DNA from: Sphaerochaeta sp.
Lineage (GTDB): Bacteria; Spirochaetota; Spirochaetia; Sphaerochaetales; Sphaerochaetaceae
Length of the DNA stretch: 64,000 nt
Reading direction: 5' to 3'
Assembly: GCA_022482495.1 (NCBI GenBank)
Contig: JAKVPA010000006.1
Location: 62,001-126,000 of the forward strand
Under the pieces are notes generated by a model, which made no database searches, was not told the DNA's origin, and was given only the letters and a program-made list of their open reading frames with translations. Made by a program: the position numbers and the translations under genes. Within the stretch, counting starts at the first letter, position 1. Every line of letters begins with the position of its first letter. Positions 593 to 54,953 of this stretch are shown one piece after another.

Positions 593-1051
593 TTACTTGA
601 AGAAATAGGTGATCAGGAAACCCACCACCGCGCCAAAGACGGCGCCTCCGAACACCTGGGGGAACGAATGACCCAGCATCGTCTTCAAATGCTCCTGGGT
701 GAACCTCCCGTCCTTGTGGATGTCCGAAAGGATGGAGCTCCATTCGTTGATCACTTCAGCCTGCTTTCCCGCGGCCCGGCGGATTCCCATGGCATCATGG
801 ATCGTGATGGCGCCGAAACAGCAGGCGATGGCGAATTCCACCGTACCGCATCCTATGGTCATGCCAATGGAAACAATCAGGGCAACCACTCCCGCCGTAT
901 GGCTGGAAGGCATTCCGCCGGTGGAGAAGGCTGCGTGGGGATTCCACGATCGCTCCAACGCAAGCGTGATGAACGGCTTGAGAAATTGCGCGCCAAAGAA
1001 CGCAAGGAAAGCGGACCACAACGGCGCATTGCCCAGGATGTCATTGTTCAT
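593..1051 (-). CDS. Divergent PAP2 family protein (DUF212/YuiD type)
   Basis: A 152-residue integral membrane protein. It carries the signature of the divergent PAP2 group: G-G-M-P-S-S-H-T-A-G near residues 45-54, then D-A-M-G-I-R-R-A-A-G-K-Q-A near 85-97, and a C-terminal L-G-H-S-x-x-Q-V-x-x-G with a last membrane helix. Length matches the family (about 150 aa). The S-S-H and R-R residues resemble phosphatidic acid phosphatase motifs, but the substrate of this group is not established. It lies 23 bp upstream of the binding-protein gene on the same strand and may be co-transcribed with it. Confidence 0.9.
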   Translation of the reverse strand: MNNDILGNAPLWSAFLAFFGAQFLKPFITLALERSWNPHAAFSTGGMPSSHTAGVVALIVSIGMTIGCGTVEFAIACCFGAITIHDAMGIRRAAGKQAEVINEWSSILSDIHKDGRFTQEHLKTMLGHSFPQVFGGAVFGAVVGFLITYFFK

Positions 1052-1079
1052 GGCTCCAATGTATCTTGTTTGGCTTCGC

Positions 1080-8807: not shown

Positions 8808-9675
8808 GCAGTTCCCGCACTTCGTTCGATGGCGCAAGATCCAGGGCGGTGCGACCCCGTTTGTCTTTCAGATGGATGTCCGCGCCACGGGAGAGGAACA
8901 GGAGAATGTTCTCTGGCTTGATGTAGGTTTCTACGGCATGCATCAGGACCGTCATGCCGCCGACATCCTGGGCGTTGATGTCCGCTCCCGCGTCCAGCAG
9001 GGTGGTGATCTTCTCCATGCGGAACGGATCAATGCCTGCCATCATCAGGGCGGTGGAGCCATGTCCGTTTTGGGCGTTCACCGAAGCGCCTGCCTTGAGC
9101 AGGACGTCAAGCACCCTGTATTCGGGGTTCATCAGAGCTGCGATCATCAGGGCGGTTGTACCAGAATGGGATGCTGTGTTCACCGGGTTTCCTAGGGCGA
9201 TCAGGCGGGCGATGGAGTCGGGCTTCTGGTTGGTCGCGGCAGCCATGAGCAACAACGTCTCTCCCCGTTCGTTGGTCTTTTGGCACGAAGCTTCGTCACA
9301 GAGCAGGGAGATCACCTCCGGGGAGCCAACTTTTGCCGCGACGATTCTGGCGTCTTCCCCATCTGCGTTTTTAATGGTAGGATCGGCTCCTGCGCGAAGC
9401 AGGTAGCGGATCATCGAAGGGGAGCAGGACGGTGTGGATGCGGCAATCATCAATGGAGTGACGCCTTTCTCATCCTTCGTGTTGACATCCGCGCCATGAC
9501 GGATCAACTCCTTCAGCGTGGCGTCCGGTGCTCCATTCTCCAGCCCAAGGGAGAGCAACGTCTTTCCGTGGGAATTCCTGCCATTGGCAGGCACGCCGGA
9601 TTCCAGCAGGCTGTAGACCAGTTCTTCGTCCCCATCGAGGACGGCGTCCATCAAAGCGGTATCCAAGGTTTCCAT
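8797..9675 (-). CDS. Ankyrin-repeat protein
   Basis: A 292-residue protein made almost entirely of about eight ankyrin units, for example G-V-T-P-L-M-I-A-A, G-E-T-L-L-L-M-A-A, G-T-T-A-L-M-I-A-A and G-S-T-A-L-M-M-A-G, each followed by L-L-x-A-G-A-D/S-x-N. No signal peptide or enzymatic domain is seen, so it is probably a cytoplasmic protein-binding scaffold. Repeat 2 is less regular. It overlaps the PNPOx-fold gene tail to tail by 11 bp. The start codon has no Shine-Dalgarno, and a promoter lies directly upstream. Confidence 0.9.
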   Translation of the reverse strand: METLDTALMDAVLDGDEELVYSLLESGVPANGRNSHGKTLLSLGLENGAPDATLKELIRHGADVNTKDEKGVTPLMIAASTPSCSPSMIRYLLRAGADPTIKNADGEDARIVAAKVGSPEVISLLCDEASCQKTNERGETLLLMAAATNQKPDSIARLIALGNPVNTASHSGTTALMIAALMNPEYRVLDVLLKAGASVNAQNGHGSTALMMAGIDPFRMEKITTLLDAGADINAQDVGGMTVLMHAVETYIKPENILLFLSRGADIHLKDKRGRTALDLAPSNEVRELLTR

Positions 9676-9683
9676 GTCAGATC

Positions 9684-9712
9684 AGGGTAGGTGATGAGAA
9701 ATGGATGGTCAA
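9684..9712 (-). promoter_or_regulatory. Predicted promoter of the ankyrin gene, leaderless type
   Basis: Minus strand TTGACC, 17-nt spacer, TACCCT, then 8 nt to the ATG at 9675. No ribosome site is present. Confidence 0.5.
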
Positions 9713-10649: not shown

Positions 10650-10670
10650 ACCTACTCCTTTCGTCCAAAG

Positions 10671-10735
10671 ACGTCAGAAGTCATCAGCCATGATAATGGC
10701 GGTTTGGGTTTCCCCGGGGAGCACCTCATTCCCTC
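10671..10735 (-). promoter_or_regulatory. Fluoride riboswitch (crcB motif)
   Basis: The minus-strand leader of crcB contains the ordered crcB-motif parts. GGGA pairs with UCCC as the pseudoknot. AUGAGGU pairs through GAGGU with ACUUC as the closing helix. An AAAC segment is followed by the hairpin GCCAU/AUGGC and the conserved GCUGAUG turn. The element ends about 20 nt before the crcB start codon, near the ribosome site. A short insertion (GGGGAAACCC) separates the pseudoknot strand from AAAC. Fluoride binding is expected to switch crcB on. Confidence 0.9.
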
Positions 10736-10745
10736 TTTCCGAAGT

Positions 10746-12160: not shown

Positions 12161-12189
12161 TTGCGTCCTTTCTGCTTCTATGCGATACT
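12161..12189 (+). promoter_or_regulatory. Predicted promoter of the ABC exporter operon, leaderless
   Basis: TTGCGT, 17-nt spacer, GATACT with TGC in front (extended -10), then exactly 6 nt to the ATG at 12196. No ribosome site is present, so transcription should start at or next to the start codon. Confidence 0.55.
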
Positions 12190-12195
12190 TCCCCC

Positions 12196-12912
12196 ATGAT
12201 TACGTTGGATCACGTTTCGAAAAGTTATGGAAAAGGGAAGAAGGCGGTGGATGACCTTTCCCTTTCCATTCCCTCCGGAGAGGTGTATGGATTCCTCGGA
12301 CCGAACGGCGCGGGGAAAAGCACCACCATCAAGATGCTGGTCGGACTGTTGCGTCCGGATGCCGGGCATCTGTCCGTGGACGGGGTGGACGTACAGCAGG
12401 ACCCGATCACGGTGAAACGGAACATCGGCTATGTTCCGGATGAACCATTGTTCTACCGGAAGATGACCGGACGGGACCACCTGGGGTTCATCGCCGACCT
12501 GTACCACGTGGAGGACCGGTGGGCGAGGGCGGACGCGCTCTGCAGGCTGTTCGATTTCACCACGCTGAACGACGAGATATCCTCCTACAGTCACGGCATG
12601 AAACAGAAGCTTGCCGTCATCAGCGCGATGATCCACCAGCCGCGCCTGTTGATCCTTGACGAACCGATGGTCGGTCTGGATCCCAAAAGCTCCTATACGT
12701 TGAAACAGGAGATGGTACGGTACGCCAAGGAGGGGAACACCGTCTTTTTCTCCACCCATGTGCTGGAAGTGGCCCAGGAGGTGTGCACCAGGGTGGGGAT
12801 CATCGACCGGGGAAAACTCCGCTTTGACGGGACGCTCGAAGAGCTCAGGCAGGGGACGGACCGGAGTCTGGAGGATCTGTTCCTGTCACTGACGGAGGAG
12901 ACCAATGGGTGA
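12196..12912 (+). CDS. ABC transporter ATP-binding protein (exporter type)
   Basis: A 238-residue ATPase. Walker A is G-P-N-G-A-G-K-S-T (35-43). The signature is the variant Y-S-H-G-M-K-Q (131-137). Walker B is L-L-I-L-D-E-P (151-157), and the switch histidine is in F-F-S-T-H-V-L-E. The S-H-G-M-K-Q signature is typical of ABC-2-type exporters. Its stop overlaps the start of the permease gene by 8 bp, forming a two-gene exporter. The substrate is unknown. Confidence 0.93.
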
Positions 12913-14497: not shown

Positions 14498-15143
14498 GCA
14501 TCAGCGCTACCGTCTCCGGTAGAGATCGCGTCATGGGGTATTCGTCGAACAGGCGTTTGCCGTTGTAGCGGAGTTGTATGCCGACATCCGCTTCGGCGAG
14601 CATGAACCGGTCGGTAAGCCCGTCGCCGGTGGCGAAGACACGCTGGTACCGTGACCCCAATCCATGCAACACCTCCGCCTTCGCCCGAGTCGTCGGAACT
14701 TCCGACGTATAGCCGGTCATTTTCCCTTCTGGACTGAAGATAAGATGTTTGCCGTAGAATCCGGTGAAGAGATTTTCGACACCGAAACGCTGGAGGAACA
14801 TCCGGGCGATCTCCGTCGTGCCGGCGGAAAGGACGATCAGATCGGCTTTGGCGGAAAGCTCCTTCAATGGGGCGTACCATTCCGCTTGGCAGGGGCGGGA
14901 AATGAAATCCACTACTTCCCGGATGGTCTGCATCGTGGCGCCCTTGGCGTAGCGGAGATAATCACGGTCGAAGACTTCCAGCGAACTTTTCCCCGCCATG
15001 TCCTTGGCCACGGCCCGTTTGGCTCTGGCTCTGATCAGCTCTCCCCGAGAGCGGGATGCCAAAAGCATCAGCAATTCTTCACTGTCATACGGGGCGAACG
15101 GGTACAGGGTACCATCAAAATCAAACGCGATGAGGGTGTCCAT
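14484..15143 (-). CDS. HAD-IB family phosphatase (phosphoserine phosphatase-like)
   Basis: A 219-residue protein with nucleophile motif F-D-F-D-G-T-L near residue 8, motif II L-S-A-G-T-T-E-I-A near 110, a lysine in T-T-R-A-K-A-E-V, and motif IV A-T-G-D-G-L-T-D-R near 170. This spacing is that of HAD subfamily IB. The start is uncertain: ATG 15143 fits the family but lacks a ribosome site, while a TTG at 15179 lies inside the end of the upstream gene. It is probably translated as the last gene of the kinase-DUF5107 operon. The substrate is unknown. Confidence 0.82.
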   Translation of the reverse strand: MDTLIAFDFDGTLYPFAPYDSEELLMLLASRSRGELIRARAKRAVAKDMAGKSSLEVFDRDYLRYAKGATMQTIREVVDFISRPCQAEWYAPLKELSAKADLIVLSAGTTEIARMFLQRFGVENLFTGFYGKHLIFSPEGKMTGYTSEVPTTRAKAEVLHGLGSRYQRVFATGDGLTDRFMLAEADVGIQLRYNGKRLFDEYPMTRSLPETVALMLTRL

Positions 15144-15162
15144 GGGTGGTATGCTAGCGGAA

Positions 15163-18342: not shown

Positions 18343-18377
18343 ATGTCCATGCAATTATCTGGTATGGATATGGACAT
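18343..18377. promoter_or_regulatory. Inverted repeat between the kinase and araC-type genes
   Basis: ATGTCCAT at 18343-18350 and ATGGACAT at 18370-18377 are perfect inverted arms 19 bp apart. The right arm overlaps the -35 (TGGACA) of the regulator promoter. It is a plausible operator for autoregulation and for the divergent kinase operon. Confidence 0.5.
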
Positions 18378-18398
18378 TTCTGCAAACCTTGCTACACT
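18371..18398 (+). promoter_or_regulatory. Predicted promoter of the AraC/PocR gene, leaderless
   Basis: TGGACA, 16-nt spacer, TACACT with TGC in front (extended -10), then 6 nt to the ATG at 18405. No Shine-Dalgarno is present. Confidence 0.55.
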
Positions 18399-18404
18399 TG
18401 CGCC

Positions 18405-19287
18405 ATGCATGAAGAGATGAAACTGTACCTGAATCCGATGGTCAAACGGTTGGTGGAGAGTTTCTCCTACTGCTTTGATGTGAAGATTACCTTCTATTCC
18501 CCCCATCTGGACGAATGGTTGGTCGGGTATCATACCGATGTGAGCGATTACTGCACCATGGTACAGAAGGAACTCAAGGTCAGATACAAGTGCCTGTACC
18601 AGGATGGGCAGGCTTGCAAACGATGCGGGGTGTTGGGGCGTTCCTTTTCCTACCATTGCCACGGGGGATTGACGGAATCGGTCATGCCCATCCAGCTGGA
18701 TGATCGTATTGTGGCGTACGCGATGCTTGGACAGTTCCGAATGGCGAAGGAACCCCCGGTGGGGGTTGTGGAGGCATGGCAAGCCGCGGGGAAACCGGTG
18801 GATGAACTTCGCCAGGCGTTTCTGGATCGTCCGTTTTTCTCCGAGGAACGCCTATCCAAAATGCTCTATCTGTTTTCCACCACCTTGTCGTTTTTGATCA
18901 GCACACAGAATGTGAAGCTGCAGAAACCGGAACTGGTGGAGCAGGTGATGGCATACATCGAGCACCATCTCAGTGAGCCGGTTTCCCTGAATGAGGTTGC
19001 CCATGCCGTAGGGAAAAGCCCCTCGACGGTGACCCATACGTTGAAGGAAAAGGTGGGAATGTCGTTCAAGGAGCTGGTCATCACGCAGAAGATGATGCGT
19101 TTCGAACGCATCCTCCTTGCCGATCCCACGTTGTCCATCAACCAAGCGGCCCGGATGGTCGGCTACGACGACGCGCTGTATTTCTCCCGTCTGTACCGGA
19201 GCAAGCGTGCCTCCTCTCCCCAAGGAATATCTGGAGATGGTCCGGCGCTCCAAGTCGTTGGATGAAGAAAAAACGGTGCTTTGGTGA
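18405..19287 (+). pseudogene. AraC-family regulator with PocR sensory domain, frameshifted near its C-terminus
   Basis: Residues 1-170 form a PocR ligand-binding domain (C-L-Y-Q-D-G-Q-A-C-K-R-C-G with metal- or ligand-binding cysteines, Y-H-C-H-G-G-L). A two-helix AraC DNA-binding domain follows from about 185 (S-L-N-E-V-A-H-A-V-G-K-S-P-S-T-V). As written, the frame ends at 19265 with an unrelated tail after R-S-K-R-A-S-S-P. Dropping one C from the CCCC run at 19219-19222 restores P-K-E-Y-L-E-M-V-R-R-S-K and a 293-residue protein ending at 19287. That P-K-E-Y-L tail is the conserved end of the AraC domain. So either there is a single-base sequencing error or a recent frameshift. It probably controls the divergent sugar-kinase operon. 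Confidence 0.85.
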
Positions 19288-19319: not shown

Positions 19320-19325
19320 TACGGT
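19320..19325 (+). promoter_or_regulatory. Predicted extended -10 of yfcE, leaderless
   Basis: TGC plus TACGGT, then 6 nt to the ATG at 19332, with no ribosome site. The -35 region is weak. Confidence 0.4.
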
Positions 19326-19331
19326 GAACCT

Positions 19332-19871
19332 ATGAAACTCTTTTTCGCTTCTGATATTCATGGCAGCGCTCCCGCGACGGAGCGGATGATCGCGGCGTAC
19401 CAGGAAAGCGGCGCCCAGCGGATGATCCTCCTGGGGGACATCCTGTACCACGGGCCAAGAAATGATCTGCCCGAAGGGTACGCCCCCAAACAGGTGGTTT
19501 CCCTCCTTTCTCCGTTGGCGCCGAAGATTCTCTGCGTACGGGGAAACTGCGAGGCGGAAGTGGACCAGATGGTCCTGCCGTTTCCCGTGATGGCCGATTA
19601 CGCCGTCCTGTTTGTCGAAGCGCTTTCCCCGAGAATGGTGTACCTGACCCATGGGCATCATCCGCTTCCCCCCCTGTGTGATGGGGATGTGGTGATCAGC
19701 GGGCACACCCATATCCCGTTGATCGATCAAGGCCCGCAGGTCCACCTGAACCCTGGTTCGGCTTCTCTCCCCAAAGGCGGATTCAAACCATCTTACATGG
19801 TGTATGACGACGGACTGTTCGTCATCAAGGATTTCGATGGCGGAGTCATCGGCTCATGGAGGGCAGTGTGA
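19332..19871 (+). CDS. yfcE: Phosphodiesterase YfcE
   Basis: A 179-residue calcineurin-like metallophosphoesterase. The metal ligands are D-I-H-G at residues 8-11, L-G-D-I-L near 34-38, G-N-C-E for the usual G-N-H/C-D near 72-75, T-H-G-H near 104-107 and G-H-T-H near 122-125. The N-terminal F-A-S-D-I-H-G-S-x-P-A-T-E-R and L-P-E-G-Y-A-P match E. coli YfcE closely. The protein hydrolyses phosphodiesters in vitro; its physiological substrate is uncertain. It overlaps the next frame by 16 bp. Confidence 0.93.
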   Translation: MKLFFASDIHGSAPATERMIAAYQESGAQRMILLGDILYHGPRNDLPEGYAPKQVVSLLSPLAPKILCVRGNCEAEVDQMVLPFPVMADYAVLFVEALSPRMVYLTHGHHPLPPLCDGDVVISGHTHIPLIDQGPQVHLNPGSASLPKGGFKPSYMVYDDGLFVIKDFDGGVIGSWRAV

Positions 19872-20695: not shown

Positions 20696-20719
20696 CGTGC
20701 AACAGGCAGACGTTTGTGC

Positions 20720-20725
20720 TACACT
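20720..20725 (+). promoter_or_regulatory. Predicted extended -10 of apt, leaderless
   Basis: TGC plus TACACT, exactly as before the araC-type gene, then 6 nt to the ATG at 20732. No Shine-Dalgarno and no clear -35. Confidence 0.45.
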
Positions 20726-20731
20726 GCCGCC

Positions 20732-21259
20732 ATGGACAGCAGGTTGGAACGCATCGACAAAGCCATCAGGAAAAAGGCGGATTTTCCCCGCAAGGGGATT
20801 TTGTACAACGACATCTCCGGGCTGACCGTCACTCCTGATGCCTTCGGTGACTGCATCGATTTGATGTATGAGTACGCCAAAGAGCGCGATATTGACCGGA
20901 TCGCAGGCATTGACGCCCGTGGGTTTGTGCTCGGCGCGCCCTTGGCATACCGGATGCACCTGCCGTTGATCCTGGTCCGGAAGCCGGGCAAGCTCTGTGG
21001 TACGGTGCACCAGAAGACGTATCAATTGGAGTATGGGACGGATACGATCTGCGTCCAGGAAGAGGATGTCCAGAGAGGGGACCGTATTCTGGTCTGCGAT
21101 GATTTGATCGCCACCGGGGGGACGGTGCTCGCCGCCTGCCAGCTGTTCGAAGAGCTGGGAGCGACGGTGGCGGGATGCTTCGCCATCATCGGGTTGTCCT
21201 ATCTTCCCTACAAGGAAATGTTGAAAGCGTACCCCGTCCACACGTTGTTGGAATATTGA
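20732..21259 (+). CDS. apt: Adenine phosphoribosyltransferase
   Basis: A 175-residue purine salvage enzyme making AMP from adenine and PRPP. It has the family opening D-F-P-R-K-G-I-L-Y-N-D-I, G-I-D-A-R-G-F-V-L-G near residue 59-68, the dimer loop R-K-P-G-K-L near 82-87 and the PRPP motif I-L-V-C-D-D-L-I-A-T-G-G-T near 117-129. The length is typical. Confidence 0.97.
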   Translation: MDSRLERIDKAIRKKADFPRKGILYNDISGLTVTPDAFGDCIDLMYEYAKERDIDRIAGIDARGFVLGAPLAYRMHLPLILVRKPGKLCGTVHQKTYQLEYGTDTICVQEEDVQRGDRILVCDDLIATGGTVLAACQLFEELGATVAGCFAIIGLSYLPYKEMLKAYPVHTLLEY

Positions 21260-27295: not shown

Positions 27296-27996
27296 TTCCT
27301 GGTCTCCTTTTCTTTGGCGAAGAACTCGTACAACGAGCCGCTTCCCACAAGGCGGGGCGTGGTGCGGACATCAATTTCCTGTGTCCGGAGAGAAGCGATG
27401 TACCGGTCAAAGAACAGGTCGGTGTACGCTTGGAGCGTTGGTTCGGATACTTCGGGCAACGCTTTTTCCCCGACGTGCTGTTTCCCGGTATCCCAGATGC
27501 GATACATGGTGAGGATTCTCCCCAGCATCGCCTGGGCGTCAGCCAGTTCCGTCTCCAAGTGCTTGCTGATCGCTTCCTTCAGGGGTGTGGCGTAGGTGGT
27601 GGCAAGCAGTTCCGTCATGCTGTCATCCCTTCGGTCGATCACCGCCTTGGGGTCAGGAATTCCCATTGTCTGGGCGATGCCCTTGACCTCATCCGGCATG
27701 GACAACAACGTGGCACGGAACGCGTTCTGGCAGAGCGTGCGATAGGTTCCCAGATAGTGTTGCAGTAGGGGAATCTCCGTCATGGTGAGAAGAGGCTGGG
27801 AACTTGAAGTGAGAAAGGTTGCCGTTGTTGTCGTTGCGAACAACGTTACCGGAACCTTGTCGGTTGCTTGGGACAACGCGTTGCGCAGTGCTGTCTGTCG
27901 TTGTTCCCGTACCACGTCGGCATCCTCCGTCCGCATGGAGGAACATCCGGAGAGCGCCACGAGGAGAATGAGCAGAAGGGGAAACCGCCGTTTCAT
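27292..27996 (-). CDS. Predicted lipoprotein, DUF4197-like
   Basis: A 234-residue protein with K-R-R, a hydrophobic core and lipobox V-A-L-S-G-C (lipidated C18). The mature part is helical, with A-L-R-N-A-L-S-Q-A-T-D-K-V near the start, then D-D-S-M-T-E-L-L and T-P-L-K-E-A-I. This pattern recalls DUF4197 proteins, but the match is loose. No function is known. The start codon lacks a Shine-Dalgarno, and TATGAT lies 7 nt upstream. It is co-transcribed with rarA through an ATGA overlap. Confidence 0.75.
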   Translation of the reverse strand: MKRRFPLLLILLVALSGCSSMRTEDADVVREQRQTALRNALSQATDKVPVTLFATTTTATFLTSSSQPLLTMTEIPLLQHYLGTYRTLCQNAFRATLLSMPDEVKGIAQTMGIPDPKAVIDRRDDSMTELLATTYATPLKEAISKHLETELADAQAMLGRILTMYRIWDTGKQHVGEKALPEVSEPTLQAYTDLFFDRYIASLRTQEIDVRTTPRLVGSGSLYEFFAKEKETRK

Positions 27997-28003
27997 GTGG
28001 ATA

Positions 28004-28009
28004 ATCATA
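28004..28009 (-). promoter_or_regulatory. Predicted -10 of the lipoprotein-rarA operon, leaderless
   Basis: Minus strand TATGAT, 7 nt before the ATG at 27996, with no ribosome site and no clear -35. Confidence 0.4.
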
Positions 28010-28026
28010 CCATCATTCCAATTCAC

Positions 28027-28055
28027 TTGCATAGCGTCGGCGGAACGTGTACCTT
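28027..28055 (+). promoter_or_regulatory. Predicted promoter of the MATE gene, leaderless
   Basis: TTGCAT, 17-nt spacer, TACCTT, then 7 nt to the ATG at 28063. No Shine-Dalgarno is present. Confidence 0.5.
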
Positions 28056-28062
28056 CGGTATC

Positions 28063-29442
28063 ATGGATGGGATGGGAAGGTTGCAACGGGAGATCCGCCG
28101 CATGTCGTTGCCGACGATGTGGGGGTTCCTCTGCCAGGCGTTGTACGACATGGTGGACATGCTGTTCATCGGGATGATGGACAAGGCGGCGGTTGCGGCG
28201 GCGACACTGTTCATCACCGTATTCTGGGTGCTGGACATCCTCAATGAAATTGTAGGGGCCAGCAGTGTGTCGATGATCAGCCAGGCGTGGGGAGCCCATG
28301 ACAAGGAGCGCACCCGCCTGGTAAGTCAGGAAACGCTGTGGTTCAAAGTGGTGTTGGCCATCATCGGAGCGACGGTGATGATCGCCGTCCTGCCTGCCTA
28401 CTACCGGTTTTTCTCCGATGACCCCCAGGTGGTCGGCTACGGTCTTTCCTACGGTGTGATCCGTCTGGCGTTCCTGCCGGTATTTTTCTCATCATATACC
28501 GTCAATACGATTTTCCGGTGCACCGGAGACGCGAAGACCCCGATGCGCCTTCTGGTCGCCGCCAGCGTGATCAACATCGTGCTGGATCCGCTTCTGATGT
28601 TCTCCACCGTTCCAGGCACGACAATCCCTGGTTTGGGGTTGGGGATCGCCGGGGCTGCCTGGGCGACGGTCATATCCATCTCATTCAGTTTTGGTGTCGG
28701 TTTCTTCCTGCTGTTCTCCGGCAAGGCGCCGATACGGCTCCGTTTCCGTGAGTTGTTCCGGTTCCATCGGAACATCGATCGTGATTTGTTCCTCATCGGC
28801 CTGCCGTCCGGCTTGAACCTGTTGATGCGCAACCTGGCCAACTTCATCGTCATCAAGCTGGTTTCTTCCTATGGGACGGACGCCATCGCCATGCTGGGGG
28901 TGGCCACCCGGATGTACCAGTTCGCCGTGGTTCCCAGCAACGGCATCGCCATGGGAAGCGGCATCATTGTCGGGCACGCGTTGGGCGCAGAGGAGATGGA
29001 AGACGCACGCAAGACGGTGGCGTTGACCAGTCTGGATTGTACGGCCATCACGCTGGGGTTGGCCGCCTTGATGGGCTTTCTTCCCGGTCCGTTGCTTTCC
29101 CTGTTTCTGGGAGGGGCCGCCGCTCCAAGGGAAGGAATCCTGCTGATGCGGGTCTTCGCCCCCTGCCTGCTCTGTCAATCGGTGATGAGCGGATTCACCG
29201 CGGCGTTCACCGGAAGCGGCGATACCCGCCCGATCCTCACGTCAGCGTTGGTCAGCCAATGGCTGTTTTTGGTGCCATACGCCATGCTGGTCACCTTGGC
29301 GCTCCATTTGGGGATCGGTTGGCTTTGGCTTGCCTATCTGGTCGGAGACGCGACGGACTGCCTGTGGCGGCTGAAGGCCTATCGAACCGGCAGGTGGATG
29401 ACCCGGAGGGTCAATCGGTCACCAGTCCGTACGGCCAGTTGA
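28063..29442 (+). CDS. MATE family multidrug/cation antiporter
   Basis: A 459-residue protein with 12 predicted helices in two homologous halves. The first half opens with P-T-M-W-G-F-L-C-Q-A-L-Y-D-M-V-D-M-L-F-I-G, and later contains N-T-I-F-R-C-T-G-D-A-K-T-P-M and V-I-N-I-V-L-D-P-L-L, both MATE hallmarks. These proteins export drugs or metabolites using Na+ or H+ gradients. The substrate is unknown. The start at 28063 (M-D-G-M-G-R-L) is chosen because the open frame upstream runs through the promoter. Its end overlaps the rhodanese gene tail to tail by 32 bp. Confidence 0.93.
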   Translation: MDGMGRLQREIRRMSLPTMWGFLCQALYDMVDMLFIGMMDKAAVAAATLFITVFWVLDILNEIVGASSVSMISQAWGAHDKERTRLVSQETLWFKVVLAIIGATVMIAVLPAYYRFFSDDPQVVGYGLSYGVIRLAFLPVFFSSYTVNTIFRCTGDAKTPMRLLVAASVINIVLDPLLMFSTVPGTTIPGLGLGIAGAAWATVISISFSFGVGFFLLFSGKAPIRLRFRELFRFHRNIDRDLFLIGLPSGLNLLMRNLANFIVIKLVSSYGTDAIAMLGVATRMYQFAVVPSNGIAMGSGIIVGHALGAEEMEDARKTVALTSLDCTAITLGLAALMGFLPGPLLSLFLGGAAAPREGILLMRVFAPCLLCQSVMSGFTAAFTGSGDTRPILTSALVSQWLFLVPYAMLVTLALHLGIGWLWLAYLVGDATDCLWRLKAYRTGRWMTRRVNRSPVRTAS

Positions 29443-31693: not shown

Positions 31694-32631
31694 GATGCGA
31701 TTTCCCCCTTGTGTTCTGGATTCAGAAAGATGGTGCAGACCACGGTGGTCCCTGCCGGACTGGATTCGATGGAGAACTCATCACTGCAGTTTTTGGCGTT
31801 GGGCAGTCCCATCCCCGCGCCGAATCCCAGCGAGCGGATCCACTCGTTGGCGGTGGACCACCCCGGAGTCAGCGCCTTCTGGATGTCCGGGATTCCCGGC
31901 CCGGTGTCCCGCGCGGTGATGACCAGTTTGTCTTTGCTGTACTCGGCGATCAACTCGCCACCATTGGAGTGGATGACGATGTTCATCTCCAGCTCATAGC
32001 TGGCGATGGCCGCACGACGGATGATGTGGGGTGAGACTCCCGCCTGCTTCAGGTGCTTCTTGATCTCCGTGGACGCGAAGCCTGCGTTCTCGAAATCGTT
32101 TTTGGTCAGTGTGTAGGTGTATGCCTCGCCGTTGAAGTCGACCAGCTCCTTGTGGAAGCCGTTTCGCTTCTCCATTTCCTCCACTTCCCGGTTGATCTCC
32201 AGAAGCAGCGAACGGGAAATGTCCCTGCTGGTCAGCATGCCGACCAGCTCCTTCTGTTTGTTCAGCACCGGGTAGCGATGGAACTGGTATCGGTCGAAGT
32301 ACCGGATGGCGAAACTGATCGGCATGTCTTCTTCCAGGACGATCAAAGAGCGGGACATGTGGTTGCCTGCCGGCTCCTCAATATACCCGCCATCCAGCGC
32401 GGTGATGATGTCGTCGACGGATACCAGGCCGATCAGGCGCTTGCCCTGGACGATCGGCACGCCGGTCAGATGGTTGTCCTTCATCAGTTGCTGGATGGAT
32501 CGGAGTGTATCGTCCTTTCCCGCCGTCACCAACGTGCAGGACATTACGTCCTTGATCTTCAACCGGTAGATCAAATCCAGGATGACGGTCGGACTGGTGT
32601 CCATGTTGATGGGAATTTCAGATACGGGCAT
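31690..32631 (-). CDS. CBS-pair protein fused to an RsbW-like ATPase (HATPase_c)
   Basis: A 313-residue cytoplasmic protein. Residues about 25-150 are two CBS motifs (K-D-V-M-S-C-T-L-V-T and M-S-R-S-L-I-V, each with a G-V/L-V-S or G-M-L-T-S-R-D-I end) that usually bind adenine nucleotides. Residues about 180-310 are a GHKL ATPase like anti-sigma factor kinases: E-L-E-M-N-I-V-I-H-S N-box, D-T-G-P-G-I-P-D G1 box, and G-F-G-A-G-M-G-L-P G2 box. It could phosphorylate a partner in response to energy charge. The ATG at 32631 has no ribosome site. First gene of the operon. Confidence 0.9.
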   Translation of the reverse strand: MPVSEIPINMDTSPTVILDLIYRLKIKDVMSCTLVTAGKDDTLRSIQQLMKDNHLTGVPIVQGKRLIGLVSVDDIITALDGGYIEEPAGNHMSRSLIVLEEDMPISFAIRYFDRYQFHRYPVLNKQKELVGMLTSRDISRSLLLEINREVEEMEKRNGFHKELVDFNGEAYTYTLTKNDFENAGFASTEIKKHLKQAGVSPHIIRRAAIASYELEMNIVIHSNGGELIAEYSKDKLVITARDTGPGIPDIQKALTPGWSTANEWIRSLGFGAGMGLPNAKNCSDEFSIESSPAGTTVVCTIFLNPEHKGEIAS

Positions 32632-32637
32632 GCGACA

Positions 32638-32666
32638 AGTATAGCACAGGGTACGCCACCGTTGAA
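32638..32666 (-). promoter_or_regulatory. Predicted promoter of the CBS-kinase operon, leaderless
   Basis: Minus strand TGC plus TATACT, then 6 nt to the ATG at 32631. A weak TTCAAC lies 17 nt upstream. No Shine-Dalgarno is present. Confidence 0.5.
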
Positions 32667-32698: not shown

Positions 32699-32704
32699 TA
32701 TGAT
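32699..32704 (+). promoter_or_regulatory. Predicted extended -10 of the pseudouridine synthase gene
   Basis: TGC plus TATGAT, then 8 nt to the ATG at 32713, without a ribosome site. Confidence 0.45.
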
Positions 32705-32712
32705 ATCGGTAT

Positions 32713-33432
32713 ATGGAACAGATCAAAGTAATTGCGGAACGGAATGACTGGCTGGTGGTGGACAAACCCTCCGGCCTTCCCACCGTTCCCCTGAAAAGTG
32801 ACAGGCCGGAGAAAGACACGCTGTTGTCTCGTCTCGGCGAAGCATATCCGGAAGTCCTTTCCGTGGGGCGGAACCCCTGGGAAGGAGGCGTGTTGCACCG
32901 TTTGGACACCCCAACCAGCGGGCTGGTGTTGGTCGCCCGCACCCAGCGAGCGTTCGATGACCTGTGGGACGAGCAGCGGCATGACGAGATCGTCAAGACG
33001 TACCTTGCCGTCTCATCCAAACGGCTTTCCCCACTGCCGGTGGGATTCGTTCCGTTTCCTTTCGGGGACATCACCCAGGGAAGGACGGTGATCCGCAGTC
33101 TTTTCCGTCCCTTCGGCGAGAAGGGGCGGGTGGTGCGTCCGGTGGCGGAGGACAGCCCTTCGGCCCTTCGGGGCAAGAGCACCGGGATCTGGTATGAGAC
33201 GGAGGTGGAGTTTCTGGGAAAGGACGGGACTACCTGTCGGTTCTCCTGCGTCATCACCCAGGGCTTCCGCCATCAGATCCGCTGCCACATGGCGTGGGCG
33301 GGATATCCGCTGGACGGGGATGTGACCTATCGGGGACTTCCGGAGAAGCCGTTCGGTCTCACTGCGCAAGAACTCCAGTTCATTGATCCGGAGACGGGCA
33401 AGCGGGTGCGGTGCGTCCGGCCGGAGGCGTGA
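32713..33432 (+). CDS. RluA-family RNA pseudouridine synthase
   Basis: A 239-residue single-domain enzyme without an S4 domain. The catalytic motif is G-V-L-H-R-L-D-T-P-T-S-G (D near residue 66). The opening L-V-V-D-K-P-S-G-L-P-T-V-P and the C-terminal Q-G-F-R-H-Q-I-R-C-H and P-L-D-G-D segments are the other family blocks. It isomerises a uridine in rRNA or tRNA; the site is not predictable. Followed after 1 bp by the aminopeptidase gene. Confidence 0.93.
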   Translation: MEQIKVIAERNDWLVVDKPSGLPTVPLKSDRPEKDTLLSRLGEAYPEVLSVGRNPWEGGVLHRLDTPTSGLVLVARTQRAFDDLWDEQRHDEIVKTYLAVSSKRLSPLPVGFVPFPFGDITQGRTVIRSLFRPFGEKGRVVRPVAEDSPSALRGKSTGIWYETEVEFLGKDGTTCRFSCVITQGFRHQIRCHMAWAGYPLDGDVTYRGLPEKPFGLTAQELQFIDPETGKRVRCVRPEA

Positions 33433-41716: not shown

Positions 41717-42445
41717 TTATGATTTCTTTGGGGCTCGCCGCTCTTTTCGGGTCAGATAGTAGATCGGGGGATTGGTCCCCGTCTTCACGCCGACCTTGTA
41801 CGCTTCCGGGAAATCCTCAATCATGGAAAGCAGCGAGGAATATCCGAACGCCTTGAAGCTGAAATCCGGTTTGAACCGGTGGATGGAGTTGCCCAGGTTG
41901 GCCAGCATCTTCGCCCCGATGCCTTCGCTGTCCGGGGTGGAATCGTAGGCCATGTCAAGGAATTTCAGCAAGGACGTCCGACTGTCCAGCTTGGTGTCCG
42001 GGATCTCATCGGAGACGGGATTCAGGTCTTCCAGATACTGGAACTGGTTGCAGGAGTTGATCCAGATCGGTTTGCACTTGGCCTTTTCCCCCAGACCGAT
42101 GACCGTCTTGCCCAGCTCCCGAAGCCTCAGGGAGAGCATGTAGTATCCGTTGTCCGACGCGACGATGGCGAACGTGTCGATCTCCGGATGCCCGATGGCC
42201 AGGGCGACGGCGTCCATCATGATCGCCTTGTCGATCACCTGGTCCTCCCCATTGTGGAACTGCTGGATCACACTGATCGGCGTGCGGGTGATCTGGTCCT
42301 GCCATGCCTTGGTGTTCTTGATGGACCAGTCGGCATAGGCGCGCTGGTACAGGATGTCCCCCTGTCCGGAAAGCCACGCGATGATGTCAGGGATGGCCCT
42401 GCTGGGTACGTTCTCCGCATCGAAAAAGACGGCGATTTTGCTCAT
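41717..42445 (-). CDS. NYN-domain ribonuclease-like protein with LOTUS/OST-HTH-like C-terminus
   Basis: A 242-residue protein. The N-terminal PIN-like NYN domain has F-F-D-A-E-N-V near residues 7-13, D-K-A-I-M-M-D-A near 71-78 and V-A-S-D-N-G-Y near 94-100, giving the acidic metal site. The C-terminal 80 residues (L-L-K-F-L-D-M-A-Y, then F-K-P-D-F-S-F-K-A-F-G-Y-S-S-L) look like an OST-HTH RNA-binding domain. It may be an RNA-processing or decay enzyme. Divergent from topB. The ATG has no ribosome site, and a promoter lies 6 nt away. Confidence 0.88.
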   Translation of the reverse strand: MSKIAVFFDAENVPSRAIPDIIAWLSGQGDILYQRAYADWSIKNTKAWQDQITRTPISVIQQFHNGEDQVIDKAIMMDAVALAIGHPEIDTFAIVASDNGYYMLSLRLRELGKTVIGLGEKAKCKPIWINSCNQFQYLEDLNPVSDEIPDTKLDSRTSLLKFLDMAYDSTPDSEGIGAKMLANLGNSIHRFKPDFSFKAFGYSSLLSMIEDFPEAYKVGVKTGTNPPIYYLTRKERRAPKKS

Positions 42446-42451
42446 ACGTTC

Positions 42452-42480
42452 GGTATAGCAGAGAAACGGCGTTCCCGCAA
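42452..42480 (-). promoter_or_regulatory. Predicted promoter of the NYN gene, leaderless
   Basis: Minus strand TTGCGG, 17-nt spacer, TATACC with TGC in front, then 6 nt to the ATG at 42445. Confidence 0.55.
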
Positions 42481-42485
42481 CCTGC

Positions 42486-42515
42486 TTGTTTCGAGATGGC
42501 CGTTTTAGGTATGCT
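42486..42515 (+). promoter_or_regulatory. Predicted promoter of topB, leaderless type
   Basis: TTGTTT, 18-nt spacer, TATGCT, then 7 nt (GGGGAAC) to the ATG at 42523. GGGGA could act as a very close ribosome site. Confidence 0.45.
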
Positions 42516-42522
42516 GGGGAAC

Positions 42523-44820
42523 ATGAAAAAACTGGTTCTTGCCGAAAAACCGAGCGTAGCCCGGGAGTTGGCCAAGGTGCTGGGGTGCGTTGGCCGTGAA
42601 AAAGGGTACCTGGAAGGTACAGACTACGTCGTCACATGGGCGTTGGGGCATTTGGTCGAACTGGCCCCTCCCGCCACCTACAGCGATTCCTACAAACGTT
42701 GGACGCTTTCCTCGCTCCCTATGCTTCCCGAGCCCTTGCAGCAACAGGTCATCGACTCCAGCAAGGATCAGTTCGAGGTGGTCCGTTCCCTGATGGGGCG
42801 TCCTGACATCGCTTCGCTGGTCATCGCCACCGATGCCGGACGGGAAGGAGAGCTGGTGGCACGCTGGATCATCAAGATGGCAGGGTATACGGGTTCCTGT
42901 GAGCGGCTGTGGATCAGCAGCCAGACGGAAGGCGCCATCCGTGAGGGATTCGCCAATCTCAAACCGGCATCCCTGTACGACAACCTGTACCATGCCGCCG
43001 AGGCGCGCGCCGCCGCTGACTGGTACATCGGCATGAACGTCACCCGTGCGCTGACCTGCCAGTATGACGCAAAACTCACCGCCGGGCGGGTCCAGACGCC
43101 AACACTGGCCCTGATGACCGGCAGAGAGGATGAGCGGGACAAATTCGTCGGGGCGTTCTACTGGACGCTCCGCGCTGATTTCGGCTCCTTCAGCGCCAGT
43201 TACCAGGATGCTGAGGGAAACAACCGCATTCTTTCGGAAGACTTGGCCAAGCATCTCTCCGACAGCCTGCAGGGGAAGACCGGTACGGTGGTGTCCGTGG
43301 AAAGCGTCGAGATGACCGAACAACCGCCGCTGGCTTATGACCTTACCGAGTTGCAGCGGGACGCCAACATCATGCTGGACTTCAGCGCCAAGATGACGCT
43401 GGATACGCTGCAGAAATTGTATGAGACCTACAAGATCGTCACCTATCCGCGGACGGACAGCAGGTACATCACCCACGACATCGTCGCGACGCTCCCTGAT
43501 CGTCTGAAGGCGCTCTCCGGAACGCCGTTCGCTTCGTTGTCGTCCCTGTACCTTGCCAACGGCTACCGGGTGGACGAGAACCGGTTCGTCAAGGATATGG
43601 CGGTGACGGATCATCACGCCATCATCCCCACGGAACAACGGGTCGACCTGGCCCGTCTGTCCAAGGATGAACGCGCCCTGTGGGAGTTGATCGCCACACG
43701 CTTCCTGGAAGTACTTTCTCCGGACTACGTCTATACGACCACGACGGTGAAGATTGATGTGGAAGGAACGTTGCTGCAGGCGCGTGTATCCGTTCCAAAG
43801 AGCCAAGGATGGCACGCCGTCTCCCGGCTGGTGGGACGAAGAAATCTGTTGGGCGAGGTGACGGATGATCCCGCGACGCTCTCCGGCATCACGGTCGGCC
43901 AGAACCTCACCGTGCAAAGCGTGAAGAGCCGCAGACAGGCCACCCCGATGCCGGAGCGGTACACCGACGCCACCTTGCTCTCCGCCATGGAGCATGCCGG
44001 CCGGTTCGTCGATGACGCCGAAGCGAAAAAACACCTGGGCGCCGGACTGGGCACGCCGGCGACCCGTGCCGACCTGATCGAAAAACTGGTCCAGTACCAC
44101 TATGTCGACCGGGTGGGGAAGGAATTCGTCCCAACTCCCAAGGGGAGGGAAGTGGTCCGGCTCGCGCCGCTGCAGCTTCGTTCCCCAGAGCTCACCGGAA
44201 GGTGGGAAGAACGGCTTGACGGCATCGCCAAGGGTACGGAGGATCCTGACCGGTTCATCGCGGACATCAAACGGAACGCCCGCGAACTGGTCGGCCAGAT
44301 CATCTCCACCCGGGATTCCTACGCTCCGGTATTTCCCGATGGAAAGGAGTGCCCGTTCTGCCATGGCCCGATGATGAAGGCCGTCGACGAGGTGGGGCGC
44401 ACCCACTACATTTGCCAGCGCCTTTCCTGCTCGTATGAAGAAATGGAGCTCAAACGCAGGGTGCCGGTGGAAAAACCGGTTGTTCCAGAGCCGGTCAAAA
44501 AAGCCGTGGTGGTCAAACGGGTTCCCGTTTCCGCCTCGGCACGTCCGGACGGAATGCGCAAAGTGGTGGTGAAGAAAAAGCCGATGGCTTCCTTCAGCCT
44601 GCCGGATGACGTGGAGACCGCGCCGTCGTACACCTATGTGACGGAAACGGTGGTGGTAACCCCAAGCAAGCGGCAACGGCGTGATGACCGCGACCGGCGT
44701 GAGACTCCGATTCGCAATCCCCGCATGAGCGGCGGAGGGGATTCCTATGAGGGTGGTGGCACCATCGCCGATTTTCTCCGCGCCAAAGAGCAACGGGACA
44801 AACATCACGGACGGCATTGA
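42523..44820 (+). CDS. topB: DNA topoisomerase III
   Basis: A 765-residue type IA topoisomerase. The TOPRIM domain starts L-V-L-A-E-K-P-S-V-A-R-E and has A-T-D-A-G-R-E-G-E near residue 105. The active-site tyrosine is in Y-P-R-T-D-S-R-Y-I-T near 315. The body ends with G-L-G-T-P-A-T-R-A and P-T-x-K-G. A single zinc finger (C-P-F-C-H-G and C-Q-R-L-S-C near 610-640) precedes a basic, unstructured tail of about 100 residues. It decatenates and relaxes DNA. The long tail is unusual and probably binds DNA. Confidence 0.95.
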   Translation: MKKLVLAEKPSVARELAKVLGCVGREKGYLEGTDYVVTWALGHLVELAPPATYSDSYKRWTLSSLPMLPEPLQQQVIDSSKDQFEVVRSLMGRPDIASLVIATDAGREGELVARWIIKMAGYTGSCERLWISSQTEGAIREGFANLKPASLYDNLYHAAEARAAADWYIGMNVTRALTCQYDAKLTAGRVQTPTLALMTGREDERDKFVGAFYWTLRADFGSFSASYQDAEGNNRILSEDLAKHLSDSLQGKTGTVVSVESVEMTEQPPLAYDLTELQRDANIMLDFSAKMTLDTLQKLYETYKIVTYPRTDSRYITHDIVATLPDRLKALSGTPFASLSSLYLANGYRVDENRFVKDMAVTDHHAIIPTEQRVDLARLSKDERALWELIATRFLEVLSPDYVYTTTTVKIDVEGTLLQARVSVPKSQGWHAVSRLVGRRNLLGEVTDDPATLSGITVGQNLTVQSVKSRRQATPMPERYTDATLLSAMEHAGRFVDDAEAKKHLGAGLGTPATRADLIEKLVQYHYVDRVGKEFVPTPKGREVVRLAPLQLRSPELTGRWEERLDGIAKGTEDPDRFIADIKRNARELVGQIISTRDSYAPVFPDGKECPFCHGPMMKAVDEVGRTHYICQRLSCSYEEMELKRRVPVEKPVVPEPVKKAVVVKRVPVSASARPDGMRKVVVKKKPMASFSLPDDVETAPSYTYVTETVVVTPSKRQRRDDRDRRETPIRNPRMSGGGDSYEGGGTIADFLRAKEQRDKHHGRH

Positions 44821-50542: not shown

Positions 50543-50571
50543 TTGCGTTTTTGGTCGGAGTTTCCTACACT
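50543..50571 (+). promoter_or_regulatory. Predicted promoter of the CBM9-like gene, leaderless
   Basis: TTGCGT, 17-nt spacer, TACACT, then exactly 6 nt to the ATG at 50578. No Shine-Dalgarno. Confidence 0.55.
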
Positions 50572-50577
50572 GAATGC

Positions 50578-51168
50578 ATGAATGTATTGATCCATGACGC
50601 GTCCAACCAGGGCGCGACGAGGTTGGCGTTGCACCCCCAGTGGGTGGAAGCGGATGGCGTGGCCACATTGGTGAATGTGTCGTATCAAGGGACGAATCTG
50701 TTGGTCTCTTTTCATGTCAAGGAACCCCAGCTGAGGAGAATGTGCACCCACCACAACGATGCCGTATGGACGGACAGTTGCGTGGAAGTGTTCCTCAAGC
50801 GGCCGGACCAGGCTGAGTATGTCAATTTTGAGTTCAGTGCGGCGGGATTCTGCCATGTGGCCCGGGGGACCGGCCGTTCAGGCAGGCAATCCTATCCGGA
50901 CGCGGGGCTTGCGTCCGTTCCTCTCCAGGTACGGATTCTGGAGAACACGCTCACCCAGAGCCGGTGGGACCTTTCCGTGACGCTGGATCTGTCACGTTTC
51001 GGTTTGGTTGAGGAGGGGGGATCCCTGAAGGGGAAAATCCTTTTTGGCAACTTCTACAAATGCGGAGACGGATTGGAAAAGCCCCATTATCTTTCCTACG
51101 CGCCGATCGACACGGACCAACCGGACTTTCATCGCCCGGAGGCGTTTGTGCCGTTTCAGTTCGTCTGA
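50578..51168 (+). CDS. Carbohydrate-binding family 9-like protein
   Basis: A 196-residue protein with one CBM9-like beta-sandwich: V-S-Y-Q-G-T-N-L-L-V-S-F-H-V near residues 34-47, W-T-D-S-C-V-E-V-F-L near 63-72, F-E-F-S-A-A-G near 85-91 and G-N-F-Y-K-C-G near 158-164. It lacks a signal peptide and any catalytic partner. It probably binds a sugar in the cytoplasm. It overlaps the tcdA gene tail to tail by 13 bp. Confidence 0.82.
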   Translation: MNVLIHDASNQGATRLALHPQWVEADGVATLVNVSYQGTNLLVSFHVKEPQLRRMCTHHNDAVWTDSCVEVFLKRPDQAEYVNFEFSAAGFCHVARGTGRSGRQSYPDAGLASVPLQVRILENTLTQSRWDLSVTLDLSRFGLVEEGGSLKGKILFGNFYKCGDGLEKPHYLSYAPIDTDQPDFHRPEAFVPFQFV

Positions 51169-52805: not shown

Positions 52806-53503
52806 GACTCCTCCTGGACGCGGGAAGGCCGAAGCGCCCCGATTCCCGTCGCAGTAAGCATGGAAATGACGAACGCCCATCCTTTCCCAATGTCAGCCAG
52901 TACCACCAGCAGGCTGTTCATCACGGCGGAAATGGCGGCGATGCACAGCATCCATGCCCCTTCACGAAGATACGCTCCAGCGAGCAATGAGCTGAACATG
53001 GCGTACAGCGTCACTCCGACGGCGAGCTGCAACGCGACGGGAAGGAACGAGCCGATGATGAATCCGACGATCGTCCCGCTGCACCAGCCGAGGTAACTGA
53101 TGATCTGCAATCCCGCCATGTAGCGTCCATTCAACGTACTTTCCTTCATCGTGGAGACGGAAAACACCTCGTCCGTCGTGCCAAAGGCGATGAAAAACTT
53201 CCTGAGGTTCCCCGTTTCCTCAAGACGCGCCTTGATCGCCGCGCCCATGAACAGGTAGCGGAGGTTGACCAGCGCCACGGAGATGACTAATTCCGTCAGC
53301 ATGGCGCCTCCGACGAGCAGGCTTTCCGCCAGAAACTGGCCGCTGCCTGCAAAATTGGTCAGGGAAAACAACGCCGCTTCCCATAATCGGAGGCCGTCTT
53401 TGCGGCACACCAAACCGAATGCCATAGCCGTGGGGAAGTACCCCACGCAGATGGGGAAGCCGTCCTTCACGCCTTCCCGAAAGGAGAGATAACCTGGGTA
53501 CAT
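52802..53503 (-). CDS. azlC: AzlC-family branched-chain amino acid exporter subunit
   Basis: A 233-residue membrane protein with F-R-E-G-V-K-D-G-F-P-I near residues 7-17, T-N-F-A-G-S-G-Q-F near 47-55 and the N-L-R-Y-L-F-M-G block near 80-87, all AzlC features. With AzlD it exports leucine-like amino acids or related compounds. The start at 53503 is preferred to 53551 because a promoter occupies 53511-53539. It is the first gene of the azlC-azlD-tatD-tcdA operon. Confidence 0.92.
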   Translation of the reverse strand: MYPGYLSFREGVKDGFPICVGYFPTAMAFGLVCRKDGLRLWEAALFSLTNFAGSGQFLAESLLVGGAMLTELVISVALVNLRYLFMGAAIKARLEETGNLRKFFIAFGTTDEVFSVSTMKESTLNGRYMAGLQIISYLGWCSGTIVGFIIGSFLPVALQLAVGVTLYAMFSSLLAGAYLREGAWMLCIAAISAVMNSLLVVLADIGKGWAFVISMLTATGIGALRPSRVQEES

Positions 53504-53510
53504 GGTCAAA

Positions 53511-53539
53511 ATGGTAGCCCTTTCCCTGGGTTGGTGCAA
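53511..53539 (-). promoter_or_regulatory. Predicted promoter of the azlC operon, leaderless
   Basis: Minus strand TTGCAC, 17-nt spacer, TACCAT, then 7 nt to the ATG at 53503. Confidence 0.55.
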
Positions 53540-53577: not shown

Positions 53578-54363
53578 ATGGCGCTCTTTTTGACCAACAC
53601 CGGTTTGTCCACTCTGAAGCATGGTGATTCGTTGGATGAGGCGACGTTGCTCGCGTTGATGGAACAGGGAAAGCGGAATGCCACGGCGAACGGCGAGGTG
53701 TATTACACCCGGCTTCTCGACAGCGGTCTGGAACTGGTGTTTCGCGTCTCTGAACGGGAAGGTGGTGTTGATGTGTACGGACTGGACACCCATATGGCGG
53801 GGCGTTGCGTCTGGACGGCCCAGCCGGTCGTCACCGTGGGGAAACCTGAGTACCTGGGTATGGATCTGCTTCTGACCGACCCTTCCCAGCATTGCGCGTT
53901 CGTCATGGGTATCGTCCGTTCGGCGTTGCTGGCCCCGATTGATGATCATTCCATTCTGGACATCCAGGTGTGCGCGTTTCCCACCGGCATGGATGTGTAT
54001 GACAGCCGGGAGGCGTTCGAGGCGATGGTTCCGGAGGAGAACCGGCCGTTGGACCGGCAGATCCTTCCATATCATTATCTTCTGGCGCGGGAGGAATCCG
54101 TCCCAAAGAAGGTCCGGGAGGCGTCGAAGAAACAGGAGATGATCAACCTGTTCTGCGGGCCGGTGCTGGCCACGCAAAAACGGGACAACGGGTTTCAGGG
54201 GACCAGCCTGTTCGTCTCCACCGTGGCGACGGAAATGGGGCACATCGATGTGGTGTATGACGGGACGCAGGTCGAGCCGCCTGAACCAGGCAGTTACCTG
54301 GTGGCGAGCGCCTATTTTTCCGGCGACGTGCTCTCCATCCGGCAAGCAGACCTCGTTCCTTGA
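53578..54363 (+). CDS. Uncharacterised soluble protein
   Basis: A 261-residue protein without signal or membrane segments. It begins A-L-F-L-T-N-T-G-L-S-T-L-K and is a mixed alpha/beta protein with no motif I recognise. GAGGAGG lies 6 nt before the ATG. It may share a transcript with the TetR gene, which starts 33 bp later and whose -35 overlaps this gene's end. Confidence 0.8.
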   Translation: MALFLTNTGLSTLKHGDSLDEATLLALMEQGKRNATANGEVYYTRLLDSGLELVFRVSEREGGVDVYGLDTHMAGRCVWTAQPVVTVGKPEYLGMDLLLTDPSQHCAFVMGIVRSALLAPIDDHSILDIQVCAFPTGMDVYDSREAFEAMVPEENRPLDRQILPYHYLLAREESVPKKVREASKKQEMINLFCGPVLATQKRDNGFQGTSLFVSTVATEMGHIDVVYDGTQVEPPEPGSYLVASAYFSGDVLSIRQADLVP

Positions 54364-54389
54364 CAAAAACGGTGAGGGGGAAGGATACT
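54360..54389 (+). promoter_or_regulatory. Predicted promoter of the TetR gene, leaderless
   Basis: A perfect TTGACA, 18-nt spacer, GATACT, then 6 nt to the ATG at 54396. No Shine-Dalgarno is present. Confidence 0.6.
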
Positions 54390-54395
54390 TCTGAT

Positions 54396-54953
54396 ATGTC
54401 CAATTCGATCATCACCAAAAAGGCGTTGGCCCAGGCACTGAAGGAATGCATGAAAACCAAACCGTTGGACAAGGTCTCCATCGGAGAGATCTGTGAGAAG
54501 TGCGGTCTGAACCGGAAAAGCTTTTACTACCATTTCCAGGACAAGTATGAGCTGGTCAACTGGATCTACGAGATGGAGATCAACCGGAAGATCCAAAGCG
54601 AGATCAAGACCAAACGGTCGGGGGAGCTTTCCCTGATGATCTGCCAGTCCATTTATGACGACCGGACGTTCTATCTCAATGCGCTGCAGGTGTCCGGCCC
54701 CCATTCGTTCCATGATTATTTCTGCCGTCAGATCGAACCTCTGGTGGAAAAAACGCTGAGCATCTCGGAAGATGATGGTCTGGACTTGTCCGAATTGTCT
54801 GATTTGATCGGGGATTTCTGTCTTTCCGCCGTGCGGAGGTGGATCGCACGACCCAATCCTTCCTCTCCAGAAAAGTTCCTTGATGAACTGACAAAAGTCA
54901 GCATATCACTCTGTGCCAAAATGATTAGCATGTTTTTGCCTGACCAAGTTTGA
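54396..54953 (+). CDS. TetR/AcrR-family regulator
   Basis: A 185-residue regulator. The N-terminal HTH reads V-S-I-G-E-I-C-E-K-C-G-L-N-R-K-S-F-Y-Y-H-F near residues 27-47, followed by D-K-Y-E-L-V-N-W. The C-terminal part is of the DhaS/TetR_C_8 type. It lies just upstream of the radical SAM gene in the same direction. The palindrome over that promoter is its likely operator. Confidence 0.93.
   Translation: MSNSIITKKALAQALKECMKTKPLDKVSIGEICEKCGLNRKSFYYHFQDKYELVNWIYEMEINRKIQSEIKTKRSGELSLMICQSIYDDRTFYLNALQVSGPHSFHDYFCRQIEPLVEKTLSISEDDGLDLSELSDLIGDFCLSAVRRWIARPNPSSPEKFLDELTKVSISLCAKMISMFLPDQV

Follow-up and report, generated by a model that had tools for sequence, protein, structure and literature searches.

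Predicted leaderless mRNAs from promoters adjoining ATG start codons in a Sphaerochaeta genome

The analysed window is a stretch of 64,000 nucleotides of a Sphaerochaeta sp. genome (bases 62,001-126,000 of contig JAKVPA010000006.1; genome of 2.25 Mb in 14 contigs, GC content about 57%). A preliminary description had listed 14 genes of the window with a -10-like hexamer 6-8 nt before the ATG, and direct reading bore this out at every one. The distance is 6 nt at eight sites. On the forward strand, the start of an ABC ATPase gene (12161..12198) comprises a -35 hexamer TTGCGT (12161-12166), a 17-bp spacer, the -10 hexamer GATACT (12184-12189) and ATG 12196 (p 0.95, the probability in the motif model described below). 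The same -35 hexamer and spacer precede TACACT (50566-50571) and ATG 50578 of a CBM9-like gene (50543..50580), with Pfam CBM9_2 in frame. A PocR/AraC-type regulator (18371..18407) has TGGACA, 16 bp, TG-TACACT (18393-18398) and ATG 18405 (p 0.99). The apt start (20697..20734) has an extended -10 TG-TACACT (20720-20725) before ATG 20732 (p 1.0), and a yfcE-like phosphoesterase gene (19320..19334) has TACGGT (19320-19325) before ATG 19332 (p 0.98). The TetR gene start (54360..54398; TTGACA, 18 bp, GATACT at 54384-54389, ATG 54396) is ambiguous. Two sites lie on the reverse strand: an NYN-domain gene (42443..42480; ATG 42445, TATACC at 42452-42457, 17 bp, TTGCGG at 42475-42480; p 0.98) and a CBS-domain/HATPase gene (32629..32643; ATG 32631, extended -10 TG-TATACT at 32638-32643; p 0.99).

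Four sites have a distance of 7 nt. These are a MATE transporter gene on the forward strand (28027..28065; TTGCAT, 17 bp, TACCTT at 28050-28055, ATG 28063), azlC on the reverse strand (53501..53539; ATG 53503, TACCAT at 53511-53516, 17 bp, TTGCAC at 53534-53539; p 0.99), topB on the forward strand (42510..42525; TATGCT at 42510-42515, ATG 42523; p 0.56) and a lipoprotein-like gene divergent to the MATE gene on the reverse strand (27994..28009; ATG 27996, TATGAT at 28004-28009; p 0.89). At two sites the distance is 8 nt: an ankyrin-repeat gene on the reverse strand (9673..9712; ATG 9675, TACCCT at 9684-9689, 17 bp, TTGACC at 9707-9712; p 0.82) and an RluA-like gene divergent to the CBS gene on the forward strand (32699..32715; TATGAT at 32699-32704, ATG 32713; p 0.99). 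Beyond the earlier list, the motif model identified the reverse-strand starts of a DUF212 gene (1049..1063; ATG 1051, 6 nt, TACATT at 1058-1063; p 0.94) and a HAD-like gene (15141..15156; ATG 15143, 7 nt, TAGCAT at 15151-15156; p 0.92), and weakly a forward start at 1119.

The start codons of the divergent pairs 42445/42523, 32631/32713, 27996/28063 and 1051/1119 are 66-81 bp apart, and both genes of each pair are predicted to be leaderless. The intergenic DNA of these four pairs is little beyond two putative promoters placed back to back. The CBS-domain/HATPase gene is the first of a reverse-strand operon (30634-32631) that continues with a DRTGG-like gene (weak match) and a gene for a PHP-domain protein. 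Other features of the window are a fusion, within a single frame, of an ammonium transporter and a P-II regulatory domain (34730-36442, forward; Pfam), a group II intron (36582-38423, forward; three Rfam domain models) enclosing an open reading frame at 37013-38353, and a fluoride riboswitch match of 39.7 bits (10668-10742, reverse). An open frame of 770 amino acids runs antisense to almost the whole of topB (42505-44817, reverse) and is probably an effect of codon usage.

The 14 listed sites share further properties. The base at -1 is C or T in all of them. Nine have a -35-like hexamer (with TTG, or with at least five of six matches to TTGACA) at a spacing of 16-18 bp from the box. The strict form of the box, TANNNT, holds at the listed sites except 12196 and 54396 (both GATACT) and 42445 (TATACC). 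A Shine-Dalgarno (SD) site is missing at 13 of the 14, in line with the preliminary description; the exception is the TetR gene, whose ATG is preceded at about 10 nt by AGGA and which the model did not class as leaderless. The listed genes had also been taken as first in their operons, which is unproven for yfcE, apt and TetR, each located 32-66 nt behind a gene on the same strand. Two start codons are open to choice: the coding score by itself favoured 42496 over 42523 for topB, and the motif model favours ATG 28072 for the MATE gene, 9 nt downstream of 28063.

The spacing was analysed in a genome sample that joined the window to 40 further 20-kb stretches of its genome, 864 kb out of 2.25 Mb in all. 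It showed a peak at 6-8 nt before promoter-proximal genes. TANNNT occurred at this distance in 72 of 435 promoter-proximal genes, with 19.5 expected from the other distances (P=6e-20). In a smaller sample, operon-internal genes had no TANNNT excess (1 of 146, 2.9 expected). Among the 172 first genes of this smaller sample, TANNNT stood 5-8 nt before 26, against 7.9 ± 2.5 in dinucleotide shuffles, a comparison of the kind that the preliminary description had proposed, and a maximum of 15 in 200 shuffles. A motif model with three classes (SD, TA, none), started from a flat spacing over 0-40 nt, arrived at TGnTATnnT with 51% of the weight at 6-8 nt. Neither this motif nor the peak emerged from three shuffled sets. 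In held-out models, for which a quarter of the stretches was kept aside for scoring and the others were used for training, 23, 9 and 6 first genes had the motif at 6, 7 and 8 nt, with about 3 per position as background. The peak was confined to these three positions in both the genome sample and the held-out models. Random internal ATGs used as a null for motif scoring mostly captured codon periodicity.

The box has the properties of a promoter element. Of the 114 predicted leaderless cases, 29 have TTG at a spacer of 17 bp, and any other spacer length has 0-6. A pyrimidine occupied -1 in 54 of 58 strong cases (p>0.9; 93%), compared to 206 of 331 SD-led genes (P=7e-7). The start codon is ATG in 98% of the cases with p>0.9, and an SD tetramer is absent in 105 of the 114 predicted cases and present in 9. 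The -10 model, the -1 test and the -35 test share one genome sample, with the -1 base and the -35 region lying outside the motif.

Transcription normally starts 6-8 nt downstream of a -10 hexamer. A box located 6-8 nt before the ATG therefore predicts a transcription start on the A of AUG and a leaderless mRNA. The listed genes very probably have such mRNAs. Their promoter would be of the housekeeping sigma-70 type, with a TTG-rich -35, a 17-bp spacer and an extended -10 TGnTAtaCT. Its position would make the usual start distance of 6-8 nt coincide with the A of the ATG, where the change from pyrimidine to purine at -1/+1 would favour transcription initiation. An ordinary ribosome could then read the 5'-AUG mRNA, as in other bacteria with leaderless mRNAs, and operon-internal and other genes would use a normal SD site. 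We infer both the real 5' end and the 70S translation route from the sequence. Some listed genes may be transcribed from upstream promoters too.

Transcription might instead start a few nucleotides upstream of the ATG and leave leaders of 1-5 nt. Bacterial start-site choice varies by 1-2 nt, and a promoter with its box at 7-8 nt could start 1-2 nt upstream. This is unlikely, however, in view of the main distance of 6 nt, which is the standard for a +1 at the A, and of the pyrimidine at -1 in the strong cases. Such mRNAs would still be without an SD site and would behave in a near-leaderless manner. It is far less probable that the promoters are real and the ATGs wrong, with leadered transcripts whose translation begins further downstream in the same frame, at a codon that has an SD site to itself. 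Start calling is uncertain, and the model shifted several starts of the window by 3-9 codons, but the 6-8 nt phasing would not be expected of a promoter that has nothing to do with the start codon. Moreover, orthologous proteins start at the same ATG, which is often SD-led in relatives.

AT-rich starts that operate without an SD site have been proposed in other phyla (PMC5397173), and the TA-rich box could accordingly be a translation signal, for example an AT-rich element bound by ribosomal protein S1, in place of a promoter. The -35-like TTG at exactly 17 bp and the TG of the extended -10 are promoter features, and the motif is a defined hexamer, not a general AT-richness; a translation signal is highly improbable. 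On the evidence given for each, the readings as wrong starts and as S1 elements were rejected. TANNNT is short and degenerate, and the sites were picked by eye in the preliminary description, which could yield chance matches. Chance is refuted by the spacing counts (72 against 19.5), the operon-internal control and the conservation across genera described below, and is left with next to no probability. The leaderless reading is thus backed by spacing, the -35 at 17 bp, the pyrimidine at -1, the ATG, the lack of SD sites and conservation. Two accompanying proposals, that it is the main pattern and that it implies a ribosome adapted to two initiation modes, did not stand.

With regard to the main pattern, SD is the commonest start mode, with about 63% of all genes and 82% of operon-internal genes, against 7-16% leaderless-looking genes. 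The motif model assigned at most 16% of all genes (119 of 740) to the leaderless class. Shuffled data still yielded 22-42 'leaderless' genes from junk motifs and overfitting, compared to the 119 in real data, so that roughly 7-16% is a fair range. Among promoter-proximal genes, the share is between about 12% (excess by strict counting) and about 23% (motif model). Gene starts were taken from a coding-score caller that uses no upstream signals, which makes single assignments and the exact leaderless share uncertain. The window is richer in leaderless starts than the rest of the sample (16 of 58 genes, P=0.01).

Predicted leaderless starts are concentrated in promoter-proximal genes. Where the neighbour is divergent they account for 27% of genes; the figures are 25% for genes 25-100 nt behind a same-strand gene, 12% for those more than 100 nt behind one and 5% for operon-internal genes. 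In divergent intergenic regions of 25-90 bp, 42-51% of the starts are leaderless, and about 15% in those of 120-220 bp. Both genes look leaderless in 12 of 105 divergent pairs (P=0.04), including the window pairs 1051/1119, 32631/32713 and 42445/42523. That leaderless starts gather where divergent genes lie close together agrees with promoter compaction as one of the reasons for their retention.

Inspection of the 16S rRNA 3' end and of ribosomal protein S1 gave no sign of a special ribosome. The 16S sequence looks spirochaetal, and its 3' end retains the anti-SD CACCTCCTTTC. S1 is full-length, with 575 bits over positions 13-516, just below the cut-off of 577 bits. Ordinary 70S ribosomes initiate on leaderless mRNAs with a 5'-AUG, according to a review (PMC9031893). 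These observations lend no support to a ribosome adapted to two modes.

For whole genomes, the pattern TATAMT-N-ATG was counted at 6-8 nt and compared with 11-13 and 17-19 nt. Other spacings of the same pattern were preferred as control; the reversed pattern was judged weaker and set aside. The genome itself has 59 occurrences at 6-8 nt versus 35 and 41 at the two control spacings (P=0.008), a modest ratio of 1.55. Two congeners have counts of 75/23/39 and 67/22/39 (ratios 2.4 and 2.2). In 39 of 41 genomes tested, 6-8 nt exceeded the other spacings, and 12 were significant after correction. A phylum-wide draw gave a median 6-8/11-13 nt ratio of 1.62 in 10 genomes of the same class and of 1.04 in 69 genomes outside it. 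The spacing excess is found in many genomes of the class and rarely elsewhere in the phylum, with a pattern test that is blunt in AT-rich genomes; the lack of an excess outside the class is therefore not evidence of absence. The strongest excesses at 6-8 nt among same-class relatives were 58 versus 14 (G094), 67 versus 20 (G035) and 63 versus 22 (G031). Leaderless starts may be commoner in these three genomes.

Orthologs provide a view on individual genes. In all of the 18 family genomes read, which represent 12 genera, the CBS-domain/HATPase gene has TANNNT 6-7 nt from a conserved ATG, at a chance of about 8% per start. One of the 18 (L198) has a poor box overlapped by an SD-like AGGA. Conservation extends beyond the selected positions, for instance to the G of the extended -10, the TA within the hexamer and one T of the -35 region. 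Among 13 orthologs of the divergent RluA-like gene, 11 carry the box. The topB gene is leaderless in 11 genomes of five genera, SD-led in 14 and both in none; the arrangement of the window is repeated in two congeners and eight other genomes of the family. All 11 leaderless topB genes start with ATG, while the SD-led ones start with GTG or TTG in 8 of 14 and with ATG in 6 of 14 (P=0.003). GTG/TTG starts are frequent in the SD-led topB orthologs L216, L217, L219, L222, L235 and L238-L240. The ABC ATPase gene (12196) is leaderless in two further genomes, L025 and L027, with the box before the same ATG, and SD-led in 11. For apt, a search for close relatives among named genomes gave only a distant Firmicute. 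Across the orthologs compared, one and the same start codon has thus been used in evolution with either mode, a conclusion that Zheng et al. had drawn for Actinobacteria (PMC3160421). The conservation among orthologs supports a function of the predicted boxes.

Leaderless genes of this type are known. TA-led genes were reported for 207 of 953 bacterial genomes, and for 6 of 18 spirochaete genomes at a mean of 3.9% (range 1.8-6.9%; PMC3160421). In Leptospira interrogans, about 244 transcripts mapped by dRNA-seq begin at the start codon or directly beside it (PMC5243855). The pattern was thus already on record for spirochaetes. The starts described here resemble the TA-led genes of Actinobacteria and Deinococcus-Thermus (Zheng et al. 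2011, PMC3160421), with TANNNT about 10-12 bp before the start and no SD site, SD favoured in operon-distal genes and an exchange of SD and TA modes between orthologs. They differ by the spirochaete host, the -35 at a 17-bp spacing and the extended -10. The share of 7-16% of genes is smaller than the mean of 39% TA-led genes in Deinococcus-Thermus (PMC3160421). L. interrogans belongs to the same phylum but to a different class, and its leaderless transcripts were identified experimentally. Leptospira and further relatives were assessed by pattern counts only. The little pattern excess outside the class of the window, set against the Leptospira transcripts, indicates either a low sensitivity of the test in AT-rich genomes or a different promoter type. 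GeneMarkS-2 predicted leaderless transcription in 21.6% of bacterial species, in a text that does not mention spirochaetes (PMC9581028). No paper joining Sphaerochaeta and leaderless initiation was found in the literature searched. The mode is already known; for this lineage, its extent and how far it is conserved appear to be unreported in that literature.

The finding adds a spirochaete lineage, for which earlier surveys gave only a few percent, to the bacteria with a sizeable share of leaderless initiation, and indicates which of its relatives have it too. Gene finders tuned to SD sites may misplace starts in these genomes. The occurrence of the same gene with and without a leader in relatives offers natural pairs for comparison. 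The CBS-domain/HATPase gene, a signalling gene, is leaderless in every genome of the family in which an ortholog was read, even where the genome-wide excess is small. On this ground we tentatively consider that leaderless initiation in the class could be a selected regulatory class and not compaction only, a possible but doubtful reading in which CBS/HATPase translation may be sensitive to how the initiation machinery is disposed, for example to the 70S pool, IF3 or stress. As a gene that never leaves the leaderless mode, it is a concrete target for the question why cells keep such starts.
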